Below are positions 602 through 23,698 of a stretch of 36,336 nucleotides of DNA, piece by piece. A program made the translations under genes and the position numbers. How positions within the stretch are numbered: position 1 is the first letter of the stretch; the number at the start of each line of letters is the position of its first letter. This stretch comes from Flavobacteriaceae bacterium (GTDB lineage: Bacteria > Bacteroidota > Bacteroidia > Flavobacteriales > Flavobacteriaceae): the NCBI GenBank assembly GCA_029938265.1, contig JAOZVI010000011.1, forward strand, positions 1 to 36,336. Direction: 5' to 3'. Under the pieces are notes generated by a model. It was not told where the DNA came from. It searched no databases and saw nothing but the letters and a program-made list of their open reading frames with translations.

Positions 602-2212
602 TTAATTTTTAATGGATGCAATTTTTTGTTTGATCTCTTCTTTTTTATTACTTGGTATTCTGACGCATGCACGTTGAGCGAGAATTACTGAAACACCTTT
701 ATAATTGAGTTCTTTGCGTAAAACTGCAACAATTTCATCGTGATTTTTTCTTAACGGAATAACAGTAATAAAATGTTTGGGATCAACGCCAATTCCTAAA
801 CATATATTTTTTATTCTGCCCAAAGCAGAAGAGTCTTGTGCACCAGTCATTGCAACAGCAGAATTATCAGAAATAATAATGGTTATGGGTGTATTTTCGT
901 AAACAGCATCTAATAATCCGGTCATTCCTGAATGTGTAAAGGTAGAATCACCTATAATGGCAATTGCATTTTCCATTCCGCTGTCTGCAGCACCTTTTGC
1001 CATAGTAATAGATGCGCCCATATCAATTAATGTGTTGATCGTATTCAAAGGAGGAAGTGCACCCAAAGCATAGCAGCCAATATCGCCAAATACATTTTTA
1101 TCTCCAATTTCAGGAATTAATTCATTGATTGCGTTAAACATATCGGTATGGCCACAACCATCACAAAGTTGCGGAGGCCTGTTAGAAACTACATCCGGAA
1201 TTACTTCATCAATATCTTTTGTTAAGCCTAGAGCTTTACCAACTACATTAGGTGTCAACTCTCCGGTAAAAGGAAGATCACCACTTAATTTACCGATTAT
1301 CTTAGGATTCTCTTCAAAATAATCGTGTAGGATCTCCTCAATAAAAGGGTATCCCTCTTCAACAACCAAGACCATTTTGCAATGATCATACAAGGCTTTG
1401 ATCTGATCTTTAGGCATTGGATATTGTGAAATTTTTAAAATTGAATAATCACTATCTTCTCCAATATTTTCCATTACGTAGTTATGGGCAATTCCACTAC
1501 AGATGATACCGAGATTAGAATCTTTTAGTTCGAGTTTATTGAATTTTGATAATTCCGAACTTTTGATCATCAAATCTTTTTTACTGATCAATGTTTGATA
1601 TTGATTTCTGGCAAAGGCAGGAATAAGTGCAAAACGCTTGGTGTCAACCGGTAATTGCATACCGTTTTGAGTTCTTCTTTCTTTAAATACAACACCTGCT
1701 CTTGAATGTGATAAACGAGTTACCATTCTCAATAGAATGGGTAATTGAAACTCTTCTGACAGGTCAAAAGCATAATGCATCATATTATAGGCATCTTGCT
1801 GATTAGAAGGTTCTAAAATTGGAATTTGGGCAAATTTCCCATAAAATCTGGAATCTTGTTCGTTTTGAGAAGAATGCATAGAAGGATCATCGGCTACAAC
1901 TACGACCAAACCGCCATTTATTCCGGAAACAGCCATGTTCATAAAAACATCTGAAGCAACGTTTAAGCCTACGTGTTTCATTACAACCATAGACCTTTTT
2001 CCGGTATAAGACATACCTAAAGCTGCTTCCATAGCAGTTTTTTCATTGACTGACCAGGTTGAATGAATTCCTAAACTTTTAGCAGTTTTTGATTTTTGAA
2101 TATATTCGGTAACCTCTGTTGATGGTGTACCTGGATAGGCATAAACCCCTGATAATCCAGCGTCAATAGCTCCTTGAGCCAATGCTTCATTCCCTAGAAC
2201 TAAATTTCTCAT
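602..2212 (-). CDS. iorA: Indolepyruvate oxidoreductase subunit alpha, without ferredoxin domain
   Basis: The large ThDP-binding subunit, 536 residues. The N-terminal pyrimidine-binding domain opens with GNEALAQGAIDAG, and YPGTPSTE lies at 26-33. The ThDP/Mg motif is GDS at 421-423 with the asparagine ligand at N450. RPPQLCDGCGH (345-355) matches the family RPPxLCxGCxH block. Many IorA proteins continue for roughly 80-100 residues as a ferredoxin-like domain with two 4Fe-4S clusters. Here the protein ends soon after QRACVRIPS, and no CxxCxxC cluster-ligand pattern exists. The start ATG at 2210-2212 gives a normal N-terminus. iorB begins 14 bases after the stop, leaving no room for a frameshifted remnant of the missing domain. 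Function is confident; the electron acceptor is uncertain. Confidence 0.9.
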   Translation of the reverse strand: MRNLVLGNEALAQGAIDAGLSGVYAYPGTPSTEVTEYIQKSKTAKSLGIHSTWSVNEKTAMEAALGMSYTGKRSMVVMKHVGLNVASDVFMNMAVSGINGGLVVVVADDPSMHSSQNEQDSRFYGKFAQIPILEPSNQQDAYNMMHYAFDLSEEFQLPILLRMVTRLSHSRAGVVFKERRTQNGMQLPVDTKRFALIPAFARNQYQTLISKKDLMIKSSELSKFNKLELKDSNLGIICSGIAHNYVMENIGEDSDYSILKISQYPMPKDQIKALYDHCKMVLVVEEGYPFIEEILHDYFEENPKIIGKLSGDLPFTGELTPNVVGKALGLTKDIDEVIPDVVSNRPPQLCDGCGHTDMFNAINELIPEIGDKNVFGDIGCYALGALPPLNTINTLIDMGASITMAKGAADSGMENAIAIIGDSTFTHSGMTGLLDAVYENTPITIIISDNSAVAMTGAQDSSALGRIKNICLGIGVDPKHFITVIPLRKNHDEIVAVLRKELNYKGVSVILAQRACVRIPSNKKEEIKQKIASIKN

Positions 2213-2381: not shown

Positions 2382-3536
2382 ATGGATAATTTTGAATTAT
2401 ATAACCCTGTAAAACTCATTTTCGGAAAAGGTGAAATTTCTAAACTTTCTGAAAATATTGATAAAAAATCAAAAGTGTTGCTAACTTATGGTGGTGGAAG
2501 TATAAAGAGTAACGGAATTTACAAACAAGTTAAAAAGGCTCTTGAAGGTTATAATGTTATAGAATTTGGAGGAATTGAACCTAATCCACAGTTTTCAACA
2601 TTGATGAAGGCTGTTGAATTGGCGAGAGATAAAAAGATTGATTTTATCCTTGCTGTTGGAGGTGGATCTGTAATAGATGGAAGTAAATTTTTATCAGTAG
2701 CTATTCCTTTTAAAGGGGATGAATGGAGTATTTTAACAGGAAATGTAAAGATAGAATCAGGTATTTCTCTCGGAACAGTTCTTACTTTACCCGCAACCGG
2801 AACGGAAATGAATTCAGGAGCAGTAATTTCAAGAAAAGAACTCAATGAAAAAAGGCCTTTTGGCAGTCCGTTTTGTTATCCAGAATTTTCGATTCTCGAC
2901 CCCAGTGTTGTTGCTTCATTACCTGAACGCCAGCTTAGAAATGGCGTAGTTGATGCTTTTGTACATGTTTTAGAGCAATATGTTACTTATCCTAATAATG
3001 CGCCTTTACAAGATAGAATTGCTGAAAGTATTTTAATAACTTTAACTGAGATTGGTGCAGGTGTTATAAGAGATCCTAACGATTATGACTTGGCTTCAAG
3101 CTTAATGTGGTGTGCTACAATGGCATTAAATGGTTTGATTAGTAAGGGAGTTCCTTCTGATTGGGGAACACATATGATCGGTCATGAACTAACAGCAATT
3201 TTTGGAACAGATCATGGACAAACTCTAGCAATTATTGGTCCAAATCTATACCTTAAACTTTTTGATTCTAAAAAAGAAAAATTAGCACAATATGGCAGAA
3301 GAGTTTGGATGCTTAAAGGTGAAAATGATGAAGTTGCAAAAGAAGCAATAAAAAGCACACAGAAATTCTTTACAGAAATGGGAATGAAAACCAAAATATC
3401 TGAAATAGCAACCGATTATGATCATGCTCCACAGGTAGTTTTTGATAAATTTAAAGAAAGAAACTGGTTGAAATTAGGTGAAAAAGGATTAATAACACCT
3501 CAGGTTGCAAAAGAGATAGTTGAAATGAGTTTTTAA
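2382..3536 (+). CDS. yqhD: NADPH-dependent iron-containing alcohol dehydrogenase / aldehyde reductase (YqhD type)
   Basis: A 384-residue group III metal-dependent alcohol dehydrogenase that closely follows E. coli YqhD (387 aa) along its whole length. YqhD reduces short-chain and lipid-peroxidation-derived aldehydes with NADPH. Visible signatures are TYGGGS (35-40) and AVGGGSVIDGSKF (91-103) for the cofactor, and LPATGTEMNSGAVISR. The metal ligands align with YqhD D194, H198, H267 and H281 as D191, H195, H264 and H278, a constant offset of three, so the active site is intact. It stands alone, divergent from iorAB; aldehyde detoxification or disposal of amino-acid-derived aldehydes is plausible. 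The ATG at 2382 gives an N-terminus collinear with YqhD. Confidence 0.9.
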   Translation: MDNFELYNPVKLIFGKGEISKLSENIDKKSKVLLTYGGGSIKSNGIYKQVKKALEGYNVIEFGGIEPNPQFSTLMKAVELARDKKIDFILAVGGGSVIDGSKFLSVAIPFKGDEWSILTGNVKIESGISLGTVLTLPATGTEMNSGAVISRKELNEKRPFGSPFCYPEFSILDPSVVASLPERQLRNGVVDAFVHVLEQYVTYPNNAPLQDRIAESILITLTEIGAGVIRDPNDYDLASSLMWCATMALNGLISKGVPSDWGTHMIGHELTAIFGTDHGQTLAIIGPNLYLKLFDSKKEKLAQYGRRVWMLKGENDEVAKEAIKSTQKFFTEMGMKTKISEIATDYDHAPQVVFDKFKERNWLKLGEKGLITPQVAKEIVEMSF

Positions 3537-3602: not shown

Positions 3603-3610
3603 TAACTTTG
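3603..3610 (+). promoter_or_regulatory. Putative -7 promoter box upstream of the hemC/hemD-like gene
   Basis: TAACTTTG is a perfect match to the Bacteroidota -7 consensus TAnnTTTG, about 50 bases upstream of the ATG at 3660. The nearest upstream TTTG (3573-3576) is 26 bases away, longer than usual for a -33 element, so only the -7 half is supported. Confidence 0.45.
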
Positions 3611-3659: not shown

Positions 3660-5243
3660 ATGAGTAGAATTATTAAAATAGGTACACGTCCAAATAAACT
3701 TTCTCTTTGGCAGGCAAATACCGTTGCAAAGCAGTTGAATCATTTTGAGCATGAAACTGAGATCGTGATCATCGAAACTTTAGGGGATTTAAATTTGGGA
3801 AGTCCCAAATATGAGTTGACTGAAAATGACATTTTTACTCAAAATATTGATACTGCGCTTCTTGATGAAAAAATTGATATTGCAGTACATGCCTCAAAAG
3901 AGGTTTCTACAAACTTAAAAGAGGGAATTGTTCAGGCTGCTGTTTTAAAGCGGGGCGATTATAATGATGTATTGGTTTTTAAAGATAATGATGATTTTTT
4001 TAGCAATAAAGTTGCAACTATAGCAACTGAAAGTTTACGATGTAAGTCGCAATGGTTGTATCGCTACCCTAATCACAAGGTTGTGGGAATAAGCGGAAGT
4101 ATTGAAGAACAATTGCAAAAGTTAGATCAAAATGAATGGGATGGAGTTATTTTTGCAAAATCTGATCTGAAAAGATTAGAACTTTTACCAAAGAATCATT
4201 TAAAATTAGATTGGATTCTTCCTGCACCGGCACAAGGAACTATTATGATAACAGCTCGGGAAAATGATAGTGATATACTTACAATTTGTAAAGAACTGAA
4301 TGATCATGAAACCGAGATTTACGTCGGAATTGAACGTGATTTTCTTCGAACTTTAGATACATACCGTTCTTCACCTGTTGGAGCTTTGGCTACAATTAAT
4401 AAAGAAGAAACATTAAAATTTAAAGGTGCAATTTTTAGTATTGATGGAAAAGATAAAACAGAATTCTTAAAAGAAGTATCGGTTGATCATATAACTGATC
4501 TGGGAGAGTATGCTGCAAAATTTTTATTAGAAAGAGGTGGAAAAAAATTGATGCGAAAAGAGATCAATATCGATAAAGAAATATTGGTTTATTCTACAAA
4601 AGCATTATCACTTACGCAAAGAAGTTTTTTTAACGCCAATATTGGAGTTGAAATGGGTGATTTTATCAAAATAAGATTCAATCGTTTAAAACCTTCATTG
4701 GTTAAAGAACCTTTAAATAATATAGTTTTTGTAGATCAGAATGCTGTAGAATCAATATTGAATAATTATTCTTCCGATGAATTAAATTTTACAAATATCT
4801 ATTGTGTAGGTAGGAGAACCAGGCGTTTTATTGAAAAAAATATTGGTAAAGTGACTCATTATGAAAAGAGTATTGAAAAGTTAGCAGATTATTTAGAGAA
4901 TAATATTGAGATCAAAGAGATCAATTTATTCTGTGGAGTTGAAGATAATATGAAATTAAAAAATATTGAAATAAATAAAATTGAATGCTACAGAATACTG
5001 CAATCTCCGGTTAAAGTTGAAGATAAATTTAAAGGAATTCTTTTTTTTAGTCCAGCCGAAATCGAGAGTTATTTATATAAAAATAAAGCTGATGATAAAA
5101 TTGCCTTTTGTGTTGGTATATCTACTGCAAATGAGGCTGCTAAGATTTTTAATAATGTTATTACTGCAAAAATACCAACGGTTGATAGTATGATAAAATC
5201 AGTAAATAGTTTTTTTGAACAGAATACGCAAAAATCTAATTAA
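3660..5243 (+). CDS. HemC-HemD-like fusion protein with degenerate porphobilinogen deaminase active site
   Basis: A 527-residue protein: residues 1-300 resemble porphobilinogen deaminase (HemC) and 305-527 a uroporphyrinogen-III synthase (HemD)-like domain, the architecture of long flavobacterial HemC. The fold signatures remain (IGTRPNKLSLWQA at 7-19, LDWILPAPAQGTIMI at 183-197). Aligned to E. coli HemC, however, the cofactor-attaching Cys242 (in GGCQVPIG) is R236 (in TYRSSPVG). Catalytic Asp84 (HSMKD) is E81 (HASKE). Arg132 is C128, Arg149 is S145 and Arg155 is Q151. Arg11 and Arg176 equivalents are kept. The frame is open throughout, so it is not a decayed pseudogene. It probably does not make hydroxymethylbilane; it may be a repurposed paralogue. 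A LytTR regulator follows after 19 bases. Confidence 0.8.
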   Translation: MSRIIKIGTRPNKLSLWQANTVAKQLNHFEHETEIVIIETLGDLNLGSPKYELTENDIFTQNIDTALLDEKIDIAVHASKEVSTNLKEGIVQAAVLKRGDYNDVLVFKDNDDFFSNKVATIATESLRCKSQWLYRYPNHKVVGISGSIEEQLQKLDQNEWDGVIFAKSDLKRLELLPKNHLKLDWILPAPAQGTIMITARENDSDILTICKELNDHETEIYVGIERDFLRTLDTYRSSPVGALATINKEETLKFKGAIFSIDGKDKTEFLKEVSVDHITDLGEYAAKFLLERGGKKLMRKEINIDKEILVYSTKALSLTQRSFFNANIGVEMGDFIKIRFNRLKPSLVKEPLNNIVFVDQNAVESILNNYSSDELNFTNIYCVGRRTRRFIEKNIGKVTHYEKSIEKLADYLENNIEIKEINLFCGVEDNMKLKNIEINKIECYRILQSPVKVEDKFKGILFFSPAEIESYLYKNKADDKIAFCVGISTANEAAKIFNNVITAKIPTVDSMIKSVNSFFEQNTQKSN

Positions 5244-5262: not shown

Positions 5263-6060
5263 ATGTTAACTAAAAAAATAAAATTTACATCAAATAAATT
5301 TGATAAGATCAAGATCTCCTTGATCGTAACAATTATTTTAGTATTTATTTTACTGTTTTTAAAACCATTTGATATGTTTTCATACATAACAAATGCTAAG
5401 TGGTATTTGTACTTTGGATATGGTGCAAGTTTATTTTTAGCCCATTTGATCACTATTTTTGTCGAAGATAGAATCTATCAAAGGCAAGATAAAAAATGGT
5501 ATATTAAAAATGAGATCTTTGTTAAATTACTGTACTTTTTTATCGCTAGTATAATTATATATTTTTACCATTTTTTATTTGTAAAAACGTTTCAAAAACC
5601 ATGGACAAGCTTTCCGGTTTTTGTCTTTAATTATACACTGCCTTTCTTTTTAATGTTTGTTCCTTTAATGATCTTTTACAGAAATTTAAAAGGAGAGATC
5701 TACAAAGAAGCAGAAAGAAAAATAAATTTTGAAGGGACTAATAAAAGCGAAAAATTTACTTTAAAACAAGAGGATATTTTATTTGCCAGGTCAGAGAATA
5801 ATTATGTATTTATTTATTATTTGGATGATGAATTGGTAAAAAAAATAATGTTGCGCAATACCTTATCTAAGGTTCAGAAACAAGCACTTTTTTTAATTAA
5901 ATCGCATCGTTCTTATTTGGTTAATCCAAAAAAAATTGATTCGTTAAAAGGAAATTCACAAAATGCCAATTTACTACTCAAATCTTTTGATGAAAAAATT
6001 CCTGTGTCAAAAACTTATTTTAAAAAGATTCAAGAGTTGAATTTTAATAAAGAATTATAG
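5263..6060 (+). CDS. Membrane-anchored LytTR-family DNA-binding regulator
   Basis: 265 residues. Four hydrophobic segments (about 18-36, 47-67, 85-107 and 116-139) form a membrane part, followed by a short linker rich in charged residues and a LytTR DNA-binding domain at about 165-258. Within it ARSENNYVFIYY (175-186), SHRSYLVNPKKI (214-225) and IPVSKTYFKKIQ are the typical blocks. There is no receiver domain, so it is not a classical response regulator; the membrane part probably senses or is gated by a partner. LytTR proteins generally bind paired direct repeats, and a perfect direct repeat lies just downstream at 6125-6155, in front of the next operon. It is 19 bases after the HemC/HemD-like gene and probably co-transcribed with it. 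Target and signal are not determined. Confidence 0.85.
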   Translation: MLTKKIKFTSNKFDKIKISLIVTIILVFILLFLKPFDMFSYITNAKWYLYFGYGASLFLAHLITIFVEDRIYQRQDKKWYIKNEIFVKLLYFFIASIIIYFYHFLFVKTFQKPWTSFPVFVFNYTLPFFLMFVPLMIFYRNLKGEIYKEAERKINFEGTNKSEKFTLKQEDILFARSENNYVFIYYLDDELVKKIMLRNTLSKVQKQALFLIKSHRSYLVNPKKIDSLKGNSQNANLLLKSFDEKIPVSKTYFKKIQELNFNKEL

Positions 6061-6210: not shown

Positions 6211-6972
6211 ATGAGAAAAATAATTTTTATAACCGGTGCAACTTCCGGAATTGGCAAAGCTACTGCCCAAGTTTTTGCGAAAAATAATTATGATCTAATT
6301 ATAACTGGTAGAAGAAATGAAAAGTTAGAAGTAATGGCAAAGGAACTTTCAACTACTTATGGCATTGAGGTTTTTACACTCAATTTTGATATCAGAAAGA
6401 GAGCTTCAGTTAGAGAAGCAATTGCTTCGCTACCCGAAAAATGGAAAAATATTGATGTTCTATTGAATAATGCAGGTCTGGCTGTTGGATTTGACAAAAT
6501 TCAGGATGGATTTATTGATGACTGGGAAGCGATGATCGATACCAATATTAAAGGGTTATTATATGTTAGTCATGAACTAATTCCGCTCTTGATTAAAAAT
6601 AAAAAAGGCCATATCATTAATATAGGTTCAACCGCATCAAAAGTAGTTTATCAGGGAGGAAATGTGTATTGTGCAACAAAATTTGCTGTTGATGCATTAA
6701 GTCAGACTATGCGAATAGATCTCTTGGAACATAAAATATGCGTAACTCAAATTAATCCCGGAGCTGCTGAAACAGAATTTTCTATTGTACGATTTAAAGG
6801 GAATAAGGATCAAGCCGACAATGCCTATAAAGGGTATAAATCATTAACAGCTAAAGATATAGCTTCAACAATTTATTATGTCACAACTTTACCGGAGCAT
6901 GTTTGTATCAACGAATTAGAAATTACTGCTTTAGCACAAGCAAATAGTAATTATTTTAACAAAACAATCTAA
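6211..6972 (+). CDS. ydfG: YdfG-like NADP-dependent short-chain dehydrogenase
   Basis: A 253-residue classical SDR collinear with E. coli YdfG, which oxidises L-allo-threonine, serine and 3-hydroxy acids with NADP and reduces malonic semialdehyde. The nucleotide motif is TGATSGIG (8-15), followed by TGRR (32-35), which favours NADP. NNAG is at 86-89, and the catalytic residues are N112, S140, Y153 and K157. YdfG-specific blocks are present: DDWEAMIDTNIKGLLY, HIINIGSTA, ETEFSIVRFKGN and TTLPEHVCINELEI. It opens the five-gene co-directional group 6211-11605 and is 18 bases upstream of the ThDP enzyme. The native substrate could differ from that of YdfG in this context. Confidence 0.85.
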   Translation: MRKIIFITGATSGIGKATAQVFAKNNYDLIITGRRNEKLEVMAKELSTTYGIEVFTLNFDIRKRASVREAIASLPEKWKNIDVLLNNAGLAVGFDKIQDGFIDDWEAMIDTNIKGLLYVSHELIPLLIKNKKGHIINIGSTASKVVYQGGNVYCATKFAVDALSQTMRIDLLEHKICVTQINPGAAETEFSIVRFKGNKDQADNAYKGYKSLTAKDIASTIYYVTTLPEHVCINELEITALAQANSNYFNKTI

Positions 6973-15779: not shown

Positions 15780-17012
15780 ATGAAAAAAATCTTATTAATT
15801 GTACTTTTAGTCTTTAACTTATACAGAATTGATGCTCAATTTGTAAAAACCGGACTCGAAGTACTTCAGGAAAATAACTTTGAAATATTAAGGAGTAAAC
15901 GCGTAGGACTTATAACTAATCCAACTGGAGTTGATAAACAGCTAGTATCAACGATTGATATCCTTTTTAATGCGCCTGACATTGAACTTAAAGCACTTTA
16001 CGGTCCTGAGCACGGTGTTAGAGGTGATTATTCAGCAGGTGATTTTGTTGAATTCTTTAAGGATTCAAAAACTGGTTTACCGGTATATAGTTTATACGGA
16101 AAGAATAAAAAACCAAGTAAAAAAATGCTTGAGGATATTGATGTTTTGGTTTATGATATTCAGGATATTGGCTCACGCTCATATACCTATATAAGTACCC
16201 TAGGACTTGCAATGGAAGCAGCGGCAGAAAACAATATTAAATTGGTTGTACTCGATAGGCCAAATCCGCTAGGTGGAGAAAAAATGGAAGGTATGATTAC
16301 GGAACCTGAATTTATTTCATTTGTCAGCCAATTCCCAATACCTTATATCCATGGTTTAACAGTTGGAGAATTAGCTCTTTTTCTTAATAACGAAAAACTA
16401 TTGAATAATGGTATAAAATGTAATTTGGAAGTTGTACCAATGAAAAACTGGAAACGTTCAATGACTTTTGAAGAAACCGGTTTGCCTTGGGTAGCCTCAT
16501 CACCGCATATCCCACATCCAGATTCAGCCAAATTTTATCCTGTGTCAGGTATTCTTGGCGAACTATATGTTTATAGTATCGGTGTTGGTTATACATTACC
16601 ATTTGAACTATTTGCAACAGAATGGATTGATGCCGATAAACTTACTGCAAATTTGAATGCCCTTAAATTACCTGGTATAATTTTTCGTCCAATTCATTTT
16701 AAACCATACTATAGCACATCAAAAGGTAAGATGATTCACGGTGTTCAAGTGCATTTTTCTGATTATCAAAAAGCCTCAATTTCATTAATTCAATTCTACA
16801 TTTTGCAAGAAGCTTATAAGCTATGGCCTGAATATAATGTTTTTGAAATGTGTGAAAAATCAAGACTAAGTATGTTTGATAAGGTGTGTGGAAGTGATAA
16901 AATACGTAAAACATTTACACAACGATGGTTGGTTGAAGATATTGAAACCATGTGGTTTAAAGACATAGAATTATTCAAGAATAAAGCAGAAAACTACTTT
17001 TTATATGATTAG
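15780..17012 (+). CDS. namZ: Exo-beta-N-acetylmuramidase NamZ (DUF1343, GH171 family), exported
   Basis: 410 residues. A signal peptide (MKKILLIVLLVFNLYRIDAQ, cleavage near residue 20) sends it to the periplasm. The DUF1343/NamZ family releases MurNAc from the non-reducing end of peptidoglycan fragments. Conserved blocks are RVGLITNPTGVD (41-52), LYGPEHGVRGD (73-83, with the likely catalytic E77), YDIQDIGSRSYTYISTLG, LDRPNPLGG (158-166) and SSPHIPHPDSAKFYP. Length is normal for the family. It is divergent from the GT2-DUF4922-SpoIID operon across the region with the ATTATTGC repeats, and convergent with an AmpG-type permease. In Bacillus subtilis namZ is clustered with nagZ and amiE; here a NagZ-AmiE fusion is encoded at 20783, which supports the assignment. 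Confidence 0.88.
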   Translation: MKKILLIVLLVFNLYRIDAQFVKTGLEVLQENNFEILRSKRVGLITNPTGVDKQLVSTIDILFNAPDIELKALYGPEHGVRGDYSAGDFVEFFKDSKTGLPVYSLYGKNKKPSKKMLEDIDVLVYDIQDIGSRSYTYISTLGLAMEAAAENNIKLVVLDRPNPLGGEKMEGMITEPEFISFVSQFPIPYIHGLTVGELALFLNNEKLLNNGIKCNLEVVPMKNWKRSMTFEETGLPWVASSPHIPHPDSAKFYPVSGILGELYVYSIGVGYTLPFELFATEWIDADKLTANLNALKLPGIIFRPIHFKPYYSTSKGKMIHGVQVHFSDYQKASISLIQFYILQEAYKLWPEYNVFEMCEKSRLSMFDKVCGSDKIRKTFTQRWLVEDIETMWFKDIELFKNKAENYFLYD

Positions 17013-20782: not shown

Positions 20783-23698
20783 ATGATTAAAAATATTTTA
20801 TTGATTCTTGTTTTTTTATTTGTGTCGTCTCTGCATTCTCAGATAGATCCATTACAAACAAAAGATAGTATTGCACAACAAAAATGGGTAGATAGTATTG
20901 TGAGTAGCATGAGTGTTGATCAAAAAATCGGTCAATTATTTATGATAGCTGCATACTCAAATAAGGGTGCTGAGCATGAAAAATTTATATCTAATCTAAT
21001 TGATAAATACCATATTGGTGCGCTTATTTTTTTCCAAGACAATGCCATAAAGCAAGCAGTATTAACCAATAAATATCAATCAATATCTAAAATACCCTTA
21101 CTTATAGGAATTGATGGAGAATGGGGTCTTCAAATGCGCCTAAAGAATACAGTATCATTTCCTTATAATATGGCACTTGGTGCGGTTAGAGATGATAGAC
21201 TTATTGAGCAAATGGGTAAGCAGATGGGTAAACACTTTAAAAGAGAAGGAATTCATATTAATTTTGCACCAGTAGTTGATGTTAATATAAATCCTAAAAA
21301 TCCCGTTATTGGTAATCGATCTTTTGGTGAGGATAAGATCAATGTTGCCAATAAATCTATCGCATTTACAAAAGGAATTCAAAGTAAAAGTGTAATGGCT
21401 TGTGCCAAACATTTTCCCGGACACGGAGATACATTTCAAGATTCTCATAAAACCTTACCAACAGTTGATGCCAGCTTAGAAAGATTGGAATCTATTGAGT
21501 TATATCCTTTTAGAAAAATAATTGATCAGGGTCTTGGGAGTATTATGGTTGCACATTTAAGTGTACCCAGTTTGGAGCCACAAAGCAATTTGCCATCTTC
21601 ACTTTCCTCTAATATTGTTACTGACTTATTGAAAGAAAAGATGGGTTTTAAAGGATTGATAGTTACTGATGCTATGAATATGCAGGGTGCTGCTAATTTT
21701 GCTTCATCAGAAGAGATTAATTTACAGGCTATATTGGCAGGAAATGATTTATTAGATGTTCCTAAAAAAATTCCTGAAACTATTGTGAAATTTAAAAAAG
21801 CAATATCTTCCGGAGTTTTAACTGAAGAACGTTTGAATGAGTCGGTTACTAAGATTTTGAAAACCAAATATTGGTCTGGGTTAAATAATTATAAACCAAT
21901 AGATACAACTAATTTAATTTCGGATTTAAATACTGTAGAAGATAAAATTTTAAATAGGAGATTAGTCGCAAATTCGGTCACTTTAATTAAAAATGATAAT
22001 AATATATTACCCATTAAAAATTTAAAAGATAACAAAATTGCCTATGTTAAATTTGGGAAAAATAATAATAAAACTTTTATAAAACGACTTAATGATTATA
22101 CAAAAGTGGATGTTGTAAGCGGAAATAGTTTGAGCGTAATATTAAATAAGTTAAATAATTACCAAACGGTAATCATTGGATTTCACAAAGGATCAAGTGT
22201 ACTTGCCAATTATAAATTTACTGAAAATGAATTGCATTGGATTCAGGAAATTTCGAGAAAACACAAAGTGATTTTAGATATTTTTGCCAGTCCGTATAGC
22301 TTACTGCAAATAAAATCATTTACCAATATTGATGCAGTAATGATCTCCTATCAGAACAATGATCTTTTTCAGGATATCTCTGCACAAATGATATTTGGTG
22401 CCGTTGATATTCAAGGAAAATTACCGGTAAATATTGGTAAGAATTATCCTGTAGGATTTGGTTTGCATGTTGCTGATCTACACAGATTGGGTTATTCAAT
22501 ACCTGAAGATGTAGGTTTGGATAGTAATAAATTACAAAAAATCGATTCGGTTGCAAAATTGGTAGTTGACTCATCTATGGCGCCGGGTTTACAAGTTTTA
22601 GTTGCACGTCATGGCAAGGTTGTTTACCGGAAAAGTTATGGTTATTATACCTATGATAAAAAGGTAAAAGTAGATAATAACAGTATTTATGATCTGGCAT
22701 CTGTTACTAAGATTTTAGGTGGTTTACCTATGATCATGAAAGCAGAAGAAGATGGCAGATTTACCCTGCAAACTACTTTAGGCGAACTGATGCCGGTAAT
22801 TAGGGATAGCAATAAAGACACTTTAACGGTACAGGAAACGCTTTCACATTATGCAAAATTAAAACCATATATTCCATATTATAAAACTATGGTTGATAAG
22901 TATGATAATAACAATCCCATGCCTAAATATTTTCAACACGAAAAATCAAATGAATATAATATTGAAGTTGCAAAGGATCTTTTTTTACGTTCGGATTATA
23001 AAGATAGTATTTACCAGCTAATTGCCGATGCTCCGCAAAGACAAAAATTAAGATATAAATACAGTGGTATGCCTTTTTATTTATTTGTAGATTATATTGA
23101 GAAGCAATACCACAAACCCCTTGATGAGTTGAATGACGATAATTTTTATGCGCCCTTGGGAGCTACAACTTTAACATACAATCCTCTACAGAAGTTTGAC
23201 AAATCTCAGATTGTTCCAACTGAAAAAGATAATTTTTTTCGTCATCAATTATTACATGGTACTGTACACGATGAAGGTGCAGCAATGATGGGTGGTGTAA
23301 GTGGTAATGCAGGGCTTTTTGCAAACTCTAATGATGTAGCAAAGATCATGCAAATGTATTTACAAAAGGGTTATTACGGTGGAAAAACATATTTAAAACC
23401 TGAAACAATTGACATTTTTAATTCTAGATATTACGAAGCAAAAGGTAACAGGAGAGGGTTGGGTTTTGATAAGCCTCAGGTAGATCCAAAAGAAAAAGCA
23501 ACCTGTGGTTGTGTGTCTTTTAAAAGTTTTGGGCATAGTGGTTATACAGGAACCTATACTTTTGCAGACCCTGAAACTGAAATTGTGTATGTTTTCTTGT
23601 CCAATAGAGTTTATCCTACTCGAAACAATAATAAATTAGGTAAACAAAATATACGCACTATAGTTCAGGGTTTGATACAGGAGGCAATAATTGAATAG
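20783..23698 (+). CDS. Exported NagZ-AmiE fusion: GH3 beta-N-acetylglucosaminidase plus beta-lactamase-fold hydrolase
   Basis: 971 residues. A signal peptide (about 1-20, ending LHSQ) directs it to the periplasm. The GH3 NagZ part (about 30-560) has KHFPGHGDTFQDSH (209-222) with the Asp220/His222 catalytic dyad typical of NagZ and the nucleophile D296 in VTDAMNM. A serine-hydrolase domain of the beta-lactamase/AmiE family follows (about 575-971): SxxK as S640-V-T-K643, the YxN-like Y760-S-G and the third motif H918-S-G920. In B. subtilis the separate NagZ and AmiE (a beta-lactamase-family amidase) remove GlcNAc and the stem peptide from muropeptides in sequence; here both activities would be tethered. 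AmiE identity is inferred; a DD-peptidase or esterase is the alternative. Confidence 0.88.
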   Translation: MIKNILLILVFLFVSSLHSQIDPLQTKDSIAQQKWVDSIVSSMSVDQKIGQLFMIAAYSNKGAEHEKFISNLIDKYHIGALIFFQDNAIKQAVLTNKYQSISKIPLLIGIDGEWGLQMRLKNTVSFPYNMALGAVRDDRLIEQMGKQMGKHFKREGIHINFAPVVDVNINPKNPVIGNRSFGEDKINVANKSIAFTKGIQSKSVMACAKHFPGHGDTFQDSHKTLPTVDASLERLESIELYPFRKIIDQGLGSIMVAHLSVPSLEPQSNLPSSLSSNIVTDLLKEKMGFKGLIVTDAMNMQGAANFASSEEINLQAILAGNDLLDVPKKIPETIVKFKKAISSGVLTEERLNESVTKILKTKYWSGLNNYKPIDTTNLISDLNTVEDKILNRRLVANSVTLIKNDNNILPIKNLKDNKIAYVKFGKNNNKTFIKRLNDYTKVDVVSGNSLSVILNKLNNYQTVIIGFHKGSSVLANYKFTENELHWIQEISRKHKVILDIFASPYSLLQIKSFTNIDAVMISYQNNDLFQDISAQMIFGAVDIQGKLPVNIGKNYPVGFGLHVADLHRLGYSIPEDVGLDSNKLQKIDSVAKLVVDSSMAPGLQVLVARHGKVVYRKSYGYYTYDKKVKVDNNSIYDLASVTKILGGLPMIMKAEEDGRFTLQTTLGELMPVIRDSNKDTLTVQETLSHYAKLKPYIPYYKTMVDKYDNNNPMPKYFQHEKSNEYNIEVAKDLFLRSDYKDSIYQLIADAPQRQKLRYKYSGMPFYLFVDYIEKQYHKPLDELNDDNFYAPLGATTLTYNPLQKFDKSQIVPTEKDNFFRHQLLHGTVHDEGAAMMGGVSGNAGLFANSNDVAKIMQMYLQKGYYGGKTYLKPETIDIFNSRYYEAKGNRRGLGFDKPQVDPKEKATCGCVSFKSFGHSGYTGTYTFADPETEIVYVFLSNRVYPTRNNNKLGKQNIRTIVQGLIQEAIIE

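Follow-up and report, generated by a model that had tools for sequence, protein, structure and literature searches.

A HemC-HemD fusion without its cofactor cysteine, retained in Flavobacteriaceae that appear to have lost heme synthesis

Why would a bacterium keep a gene of heme synthesis whose product seems to have lost the means of catalysis? The question is raised by a stretch of 36,336 nucleotides of a Flavobacteriaceae genome (assembly GCA_029938265.1, contig JAOZVI010000011.1), hereafter the window, which carries a gene, hemCD, for a fusion of hydroxymethylbilane synthase (HemC) with uroporphyrinogen-III synthase (HemD). A first-pass annotation, made from the letters alone, saw there a repurposed paralogue, perhaps a tetrapyrrole or porphobilinogen sensor. 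The explanation that we find probable is another one: a single, orthologous HemCD would have turned into a pseudoenzyme with the loss of heme synthesis, and it would have been kept for a non-catalytic role, likely that of a scaffold, perhaps older than the loss itself. Features of the locus are collected in Table 1.

Table 1. Features of the hemCD region of the window (residue changes are given as window residue, then E. coli position)
Feature	Position	Strand	Basis or remark
iorA-like oxidoreductase alpha subunit	602..2212	-	apparent ancestral heme-operon flank, as in Lutibacter
Iron-containing alcohol dehydrogenase (FeADH)	2382..3536	+	occupies the place of Lutibacter hemJ-hemH-AraC-hemA (compare L116)
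TAACTTTG, -7-box-like motif (TAnnTTTG) upstream of hemCD	3603..3610	+	conserved in G398; one base off in G146
Cys-less HemC-HemD fusion (putative pseudoenzyme)	3660..5243	+	527 aa; no other PF01379 match in the genome
HemC (hydroxymethylbilane synthase-like) domain, residues 1-300	3660..4559	+	PF01379/PF03900; model TM-score about 0.91 to solved HMBS
E81 codon at catalytic Asp84 position	3900..3902	+	alignment
C128 codon at Arg132 position	4041..4043	+	alignment; replaced by C, C, H, H, Q in the five Cys-less lineages
S145 codon at Arg149 position	4092..4094	+	alignment; lost in 5/5 Cys-less lineages
Q151 codon at Arg155 position	4110..4112	+	alignment
R236 codon at dipyrromethane-cofactor Cys242 position	4365..4367	+	alignment; cysteine in all 81 intact homologues
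HemD (uroporphyrinogen-III synthase-like) domain, residues 305-527	4572..5240	+	PF02602 E 1e-12; fold match 3mw8
LytTR-domain protein	5263..6060	+	PF04397 E 1e-15; probably co-transcribed with hemCD; subclade-specific neighbour
Short-chain dehydrogenase	6211..6972	+	71% identity to L135 9663-10421, directly downstream of the L135 Cys-less hemCD

The former active site

The open frame of 527 codons described at first stands, with no internal stop. Its product matches PF01379 (E 3e-52), PF03900 (E 2e-7) and, further on, the HEM4 family PF02602. In the predicted structure (pLDDT 87; TM-score about 0.91 to 4mlv and 1pda over the target) the three-domain fold of hydroxymethylbilane synthases (HMBS) is retained, and a HemD-like domain follows it. 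Domain order, length, fold and what appears to be the ancestral operon position are those of the HemC-HemD fusions of the family (TIGR00212/PF01379-PF03900 followed by PF02602), to which the protein is 45-57% identical. Unlike them, it has lost the cofactor cysteine, Asp84, Arg132, Arg149, Arg155 and the GG motif, and its gene lies outside a heme operon, with no pathway around.

The residues were compared by aligning the protein with HemC of Escherichia coli K-12, whose numbering comes first here, and with 81 intact homologues of the family. All five substitutions of the first-pass annotation (Cys242 to R236, Asp84 to E81, Arg132 to C128, Arg149 to S145 and Arg155 to Q151) are exact, in columns that are each invariant in the 81 intact proteins. 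Other changes accompany them (S13 to N12, S81 to A78, G240-G241 to T-Y, a degraded lid loop), while R11, K83, R131 and R176 are retained. The functions of Cys242, Asp84, Arg149 and Arg155 have been described for HMBS (PMC8561815). A protein deprived of these catalytic residues should have no HMB-synthase activity, in keeping with the initial prediction that it should not polymerise porphobilinogen.

Sequencing error, an early concern, is excluded as the cause of the changes: relatives in independent assemblies also carry a Cys-less HemC, among them G146 (90% identity to the window protein), with identical residues at the changed sites, and G398 (77% identity), with F at the cysteine position and N at that of R149. 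In the window protein, invariant HemC positions have been lost more often within the active site (12 of 23) than elsewhere (14 of 77; p 0.002), by a list of active-site residues drawn up from what is generally known of HMBS structures, and the enrichment is significant in four of the five Cys-less lineages. At the former cysteine position the Cys-less proteins have R/R/F/H/Q/K/S/N, a free variation that led us to reject a heme ligand at that place. In two lineages the lid has been deleted.

Heme synthesis and the history of the locus

The window's genome (2.73 Mb, 90% complete) yielded no second hemC, GGC-bearing or otherwise, in a PF01379 search, and hemA, hemB, hemE and hemH were not found in it. 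A heme-copper oxidase is present. The host thus seems to depend on heme without producing any, and it is probably a heme auxotroph. A sole hemC in a heme-making genome had been named at the outset as a finding that would refute the first reading; the gene is indeed alone, but the genome does not seem to be a heme-making one.

The same picture is found in relatives. The gene hemB is missing in all eight Cys-less genomes (the window's and seven other Flavobacteriaceae), some of them with completeness ratings of 100% and 97%; among the seven tested, all lack hemA and possess COX1, and six lack hemE and hemH, the exception being G330, where hemE is intact and hemH broken. Absence of hem genes and presence of the oxidase are also seen in the window's genus mates G146, G398 and G397. 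To be sure, most of these genomes are metagenome drafts, and those of the window (G000), G146, G330, G397 and G398 are incomplete (69-93%, with G397 at 75% and G398 at 69%). Such drafts could in principle conceal the other hem genes of a working, Cys-less HMB synthase, and the TIGR00212 score, 225 bits for a cut-off of 164, would suit an enzyme. However, five catalytic residues have changed together, the absence of hemB recurs in nearly complete genomes and the flanking hem genes are missing within contigs, so that we regard a functional synthase as extremely improbable.

The high score has a practical consequence. TIGR00212 is the NCBIfam equivalog model of hemC, and Cys-less proteins (P0001, P0003, P0009) exceed its cut-off. 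Automatic annotation will therefore miscall Cys-less HemCD as hydroxymethylbilane synthase, and pathway-completeness scores will be misled, crediting heme auxotrophs with a HemC step that they lack.

Retention of the gene is not the rule. Among 397 genomes sampled from the family, 21 with at least 90% completeness are without hemB; five of these keep hemC, in every case Cys-less, and about 16 have no hemC, hence the proposed second role is not indispensable. Three less complete genomes without hemB (G112, G165, G202) also have a hemC match, probably because of assembly gaps.

Cys-less HemCD is distributed over the window's genus, in two subclades about 50% identical to each other, and over three other places: locus L135 (genome G400), G368 and G197. 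Species close to the last two, G200 in the genus of G368 and G365 in that of G197, have the GGC motif, an intact HemC and the full pathway or operon. The order of the intact locus is hemJ-(VPS10-like)-hemH-AraC-hemA-hemCD-hemE-EI24-hemF-hemB in G200, and hemJ-hemH-AraC-hemA-hemCD-hemB-hemL-hemE-hemN in Lutibacter. In G368 the position of the intact locus is preserved, hemH, AraC, hemA, hemE, hemF and hemB are gone, and hemCD, the only hem gene remaining there, is left with EI24 and the outer flanks. In G197 only AraC and hemCD remain of the operon. L135 (8001-10421) has a Cys-less hemCD between flanks of the Lutimonas type (HSP90-like, FabH-like and symporter-like) and no hem genes. A fossil operon of the Lutibacter type can be read on contig C17 of G330 (L097 2869-6941), with hemJ, a junction of hemH and hemL remnants (the 3' end of the former, the 3' part of the latter), and intact hemE and hemN; hemA, hemCD and hemB are missing from it, hemA and hemB from the genome as well, and hemCD survives on another contig.

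In the window, hemCD appears to sit at the ancestral site of the heme operon, with iorB-iorA upstream as in Lutibacter, where a similar iorA gene, judged from its N-terminal sequence and its size, stands beside hemJ-hemH (L116). This apparent position and the lack of a second hemC make the gene an orthologue, and the first description of it as a paralogue is not supported.

How often did this happen? The hemCD gene tree groups G197 with G368, both fast-evolving, which would suit a shared origin of their changes. By contrast, in the tree of the VPS10-like neighbour gene G368 pairs with the GGC-bearing G200, its sister (support 100/99), and a clade of G368 and G197 is rejected (p-AU 0.02); their losses are therefore independent, and we read the grouping in the hemCD tree as convergence or long-branch attraction. 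A second neighbour gene, CNNM, neither supports nor rejects a shared origin (p 0.24). Cys-less HemCD with loss of the pathway has arisen at least three times, the window's clade included. The pathway may also have been lost separately in the window's subclade, in L135 and in G330, since the flanks differ there, being Lutibacter-like, Lutimonas-like and relocated, respectively.

Selection on the retained gene

Is the gene more than a leftover? In a branch codon model omega is 0.065 in the window's subclade and 0.087 in G330/G397, for 0.030 in intact homologues, and omega = 1 is rejected in both (2dlnL 451 and 215). The rise of two- to three-fold indicates that constraint is partly relaxed. Between the window and G146, hemCD has dS 0.46, dN 0.045 and omega 0.10, close to the dN/dS of its neighbours (0.07 for FeADH, 0.14 for the LytTR gene). 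On the long branches synonymous sites are saturated, which makes omega unreliable for the tips of G197 and G368 and for the stems. For these two genomes the argument comes from stop codons: an unconstrained gene should show 9.5 of them in G368 and 15.8 in G197, not one is seen, and all indels are in frame. Over all Cys-less lineages, frames are open where 4 to 16 stops would be expected. Purifying selection keeps hemCD in the Cys-less lineages, and the early statement that it is conserved rather than decaying proves correct.

Neutral decay is rejected by these tests. A relic that merely awaits deletion while its active site drifts would account for the raised omega, for the many relatives that have neither hemB nor hemC and for the partly deleted operon of G330, but it squares poorly with the constraint just described and with the sparing of hemCD when its operon partners were lost, and we hold it to be unlikely. 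A homologous fold kept, catalytic residues lost and purifying selection are the marks of a pseudoenzyme, and we infer the non-catalytic function from retention alone.

The retained role could also belong to the HemD-like domain alone (for example a non-heme role of HemD-family proteins that has gone unnoticed in Bacteroidota), HemC being carried along as a fused structural partner. Of 41 invariant residues in the HemD part, 35-37 are kept in every Cys-less lineage; in the HemC part it is 55-74 of 100. A stand-alone HemD-family protein of about 250 aa (G000:C254:3882-4499, with equivalents L195-L205) is encoded in all 11 genomes searched, heme auxotrophs included, and may itself have a non-heme role; it has the HemD fold (uroporphyrinogen-III synthase, PF02602), and differs from the window protein in being a separate gene without a HemC domain. 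HemD matches survive in hemB-less genomes as far as Bacteroides ihuae, where PF01379, hemB and hemE all lack a match. Against a role of HemD alone, omega in the window's subclade is alike in both parts (0.062 for HemC, 0.064 for HemD), the HemC part persists in every lineage, and the catalytic region of HemD has itself been partly lost in the window (T358-S359), most other invariants being kept. We consider such a role rather improbable, though less so than a relic.

The neighbours of hemCD and its possible second role

The co-oriented LytTR gene, which starts 19 bases after the hemCD stop codon as first described, was, together with the conserved fold, the ground of the first reading. It adjoins hemCD only in the window's subclade (G000, G146 and G398); a LytTR gene was not found beside hemCD in G330, G397, G368, G197 or L135. 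As a general partner of HemCD it is rejected, and no neighbour gene is common to all Cys-less lineages. The -7-box-like motif upstream of hemCD is presumably a promoter element, from what is generally known of Bacteroidota. Farther downstream, the window codes for an N-acetylmuramidase, NamZ (15780-17012), and for a protein of 971 aa in which a GH3 glycosidase is fused to a beta-lactamase-like domain (20783-23698).

Could the old HemC cleft have become a binder of tetrapyrrole, heme or porphobilinogen, as sensor or heme chaperone, coupled to LytTR in the window's subclade? Hosts with COX1 that appear to make no heme would have a use for one, the linkage to LytTR persists in G146 and G398, and in four of the five lineages Arg132 is replaced by a possible heme ligand (C, C, H, H). 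There is a parallel in CgdH2, a HemN-like protein without coproporphyrinogen dehydrogenase activity that binds heme and is a proposed chaperone (PMC10320005): CgdH2 and HemW, grouped as HemN-like heme chaperones, are likewise members of a heme-pathway family, kept for another role without the pathway activity (PMC10320005), but theirs is an unrelated radical-SAM fold, and heme binding has been demonstrated there, whereas in the window protein it would be hypothetical. However, the arginines that hold propionate and acetate groups are those that were lost, nothing constrains the cysteine position, two lineages have dispensed with the lid, and four lineages other than the window's subclade have no LytTR beside hemCD. 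Furthermore, one transition is enough to turn a CGN codon for R into a codon for C, H or Q, so that the pattern at position 128 may be mutational. The sensor proposal thus keeps its linkage within one subclade and is weakened otherwise; a binder working through the old cleft appears unlikely, about as much as a relic.

The pseudoenzyme account would run as follows. A flavobacterium loses heme synthesis, the porphyrin pathway being deleted around hemCD; the cofactor cysteine and the catalytic arginines disappear from the HemC cleft, and the protein, still folded and with both its domains, would be retained by purifying selection for a non-catalytic role. As it is the old cleft that decays, a scaffold or a protein that binds a partner, acting through a conserved surface and the HemD-like domain, seems a likelier candidate than a tetrapyrrole sensor within that cleft. 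That at least three independent losses of the pathway ended in this way suggests that the role preceded the loss: it might already be at work, as moonlighting, in heme-making Flavobacteriaceae, and be exposed once the pathway is gone. We found no report in the open-licence literature of a Cys-less HemC or pseudo-HemC, nor of a comparable case of retention for HemC.

A broader and more tentative proposal, to which we give somewhat less than an even chance, is that HemCD has a widespread second function, independent of tetrapyrroles, for which alone independent auxotroph lineages keep the protein while releasing its active site. The repeated keeping of a dead enzyme after pathway loss is a natural experiment, parting catalysis from a hidden function. 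The second role could be tested directly in a relative that lends itself to genetics, such as Flavobacterium johnsoniae. If the proposal is true, the Flavobacteriaceae as a whole would have a core enzyme of heme synthesis whose bifunctional nature is hidden.
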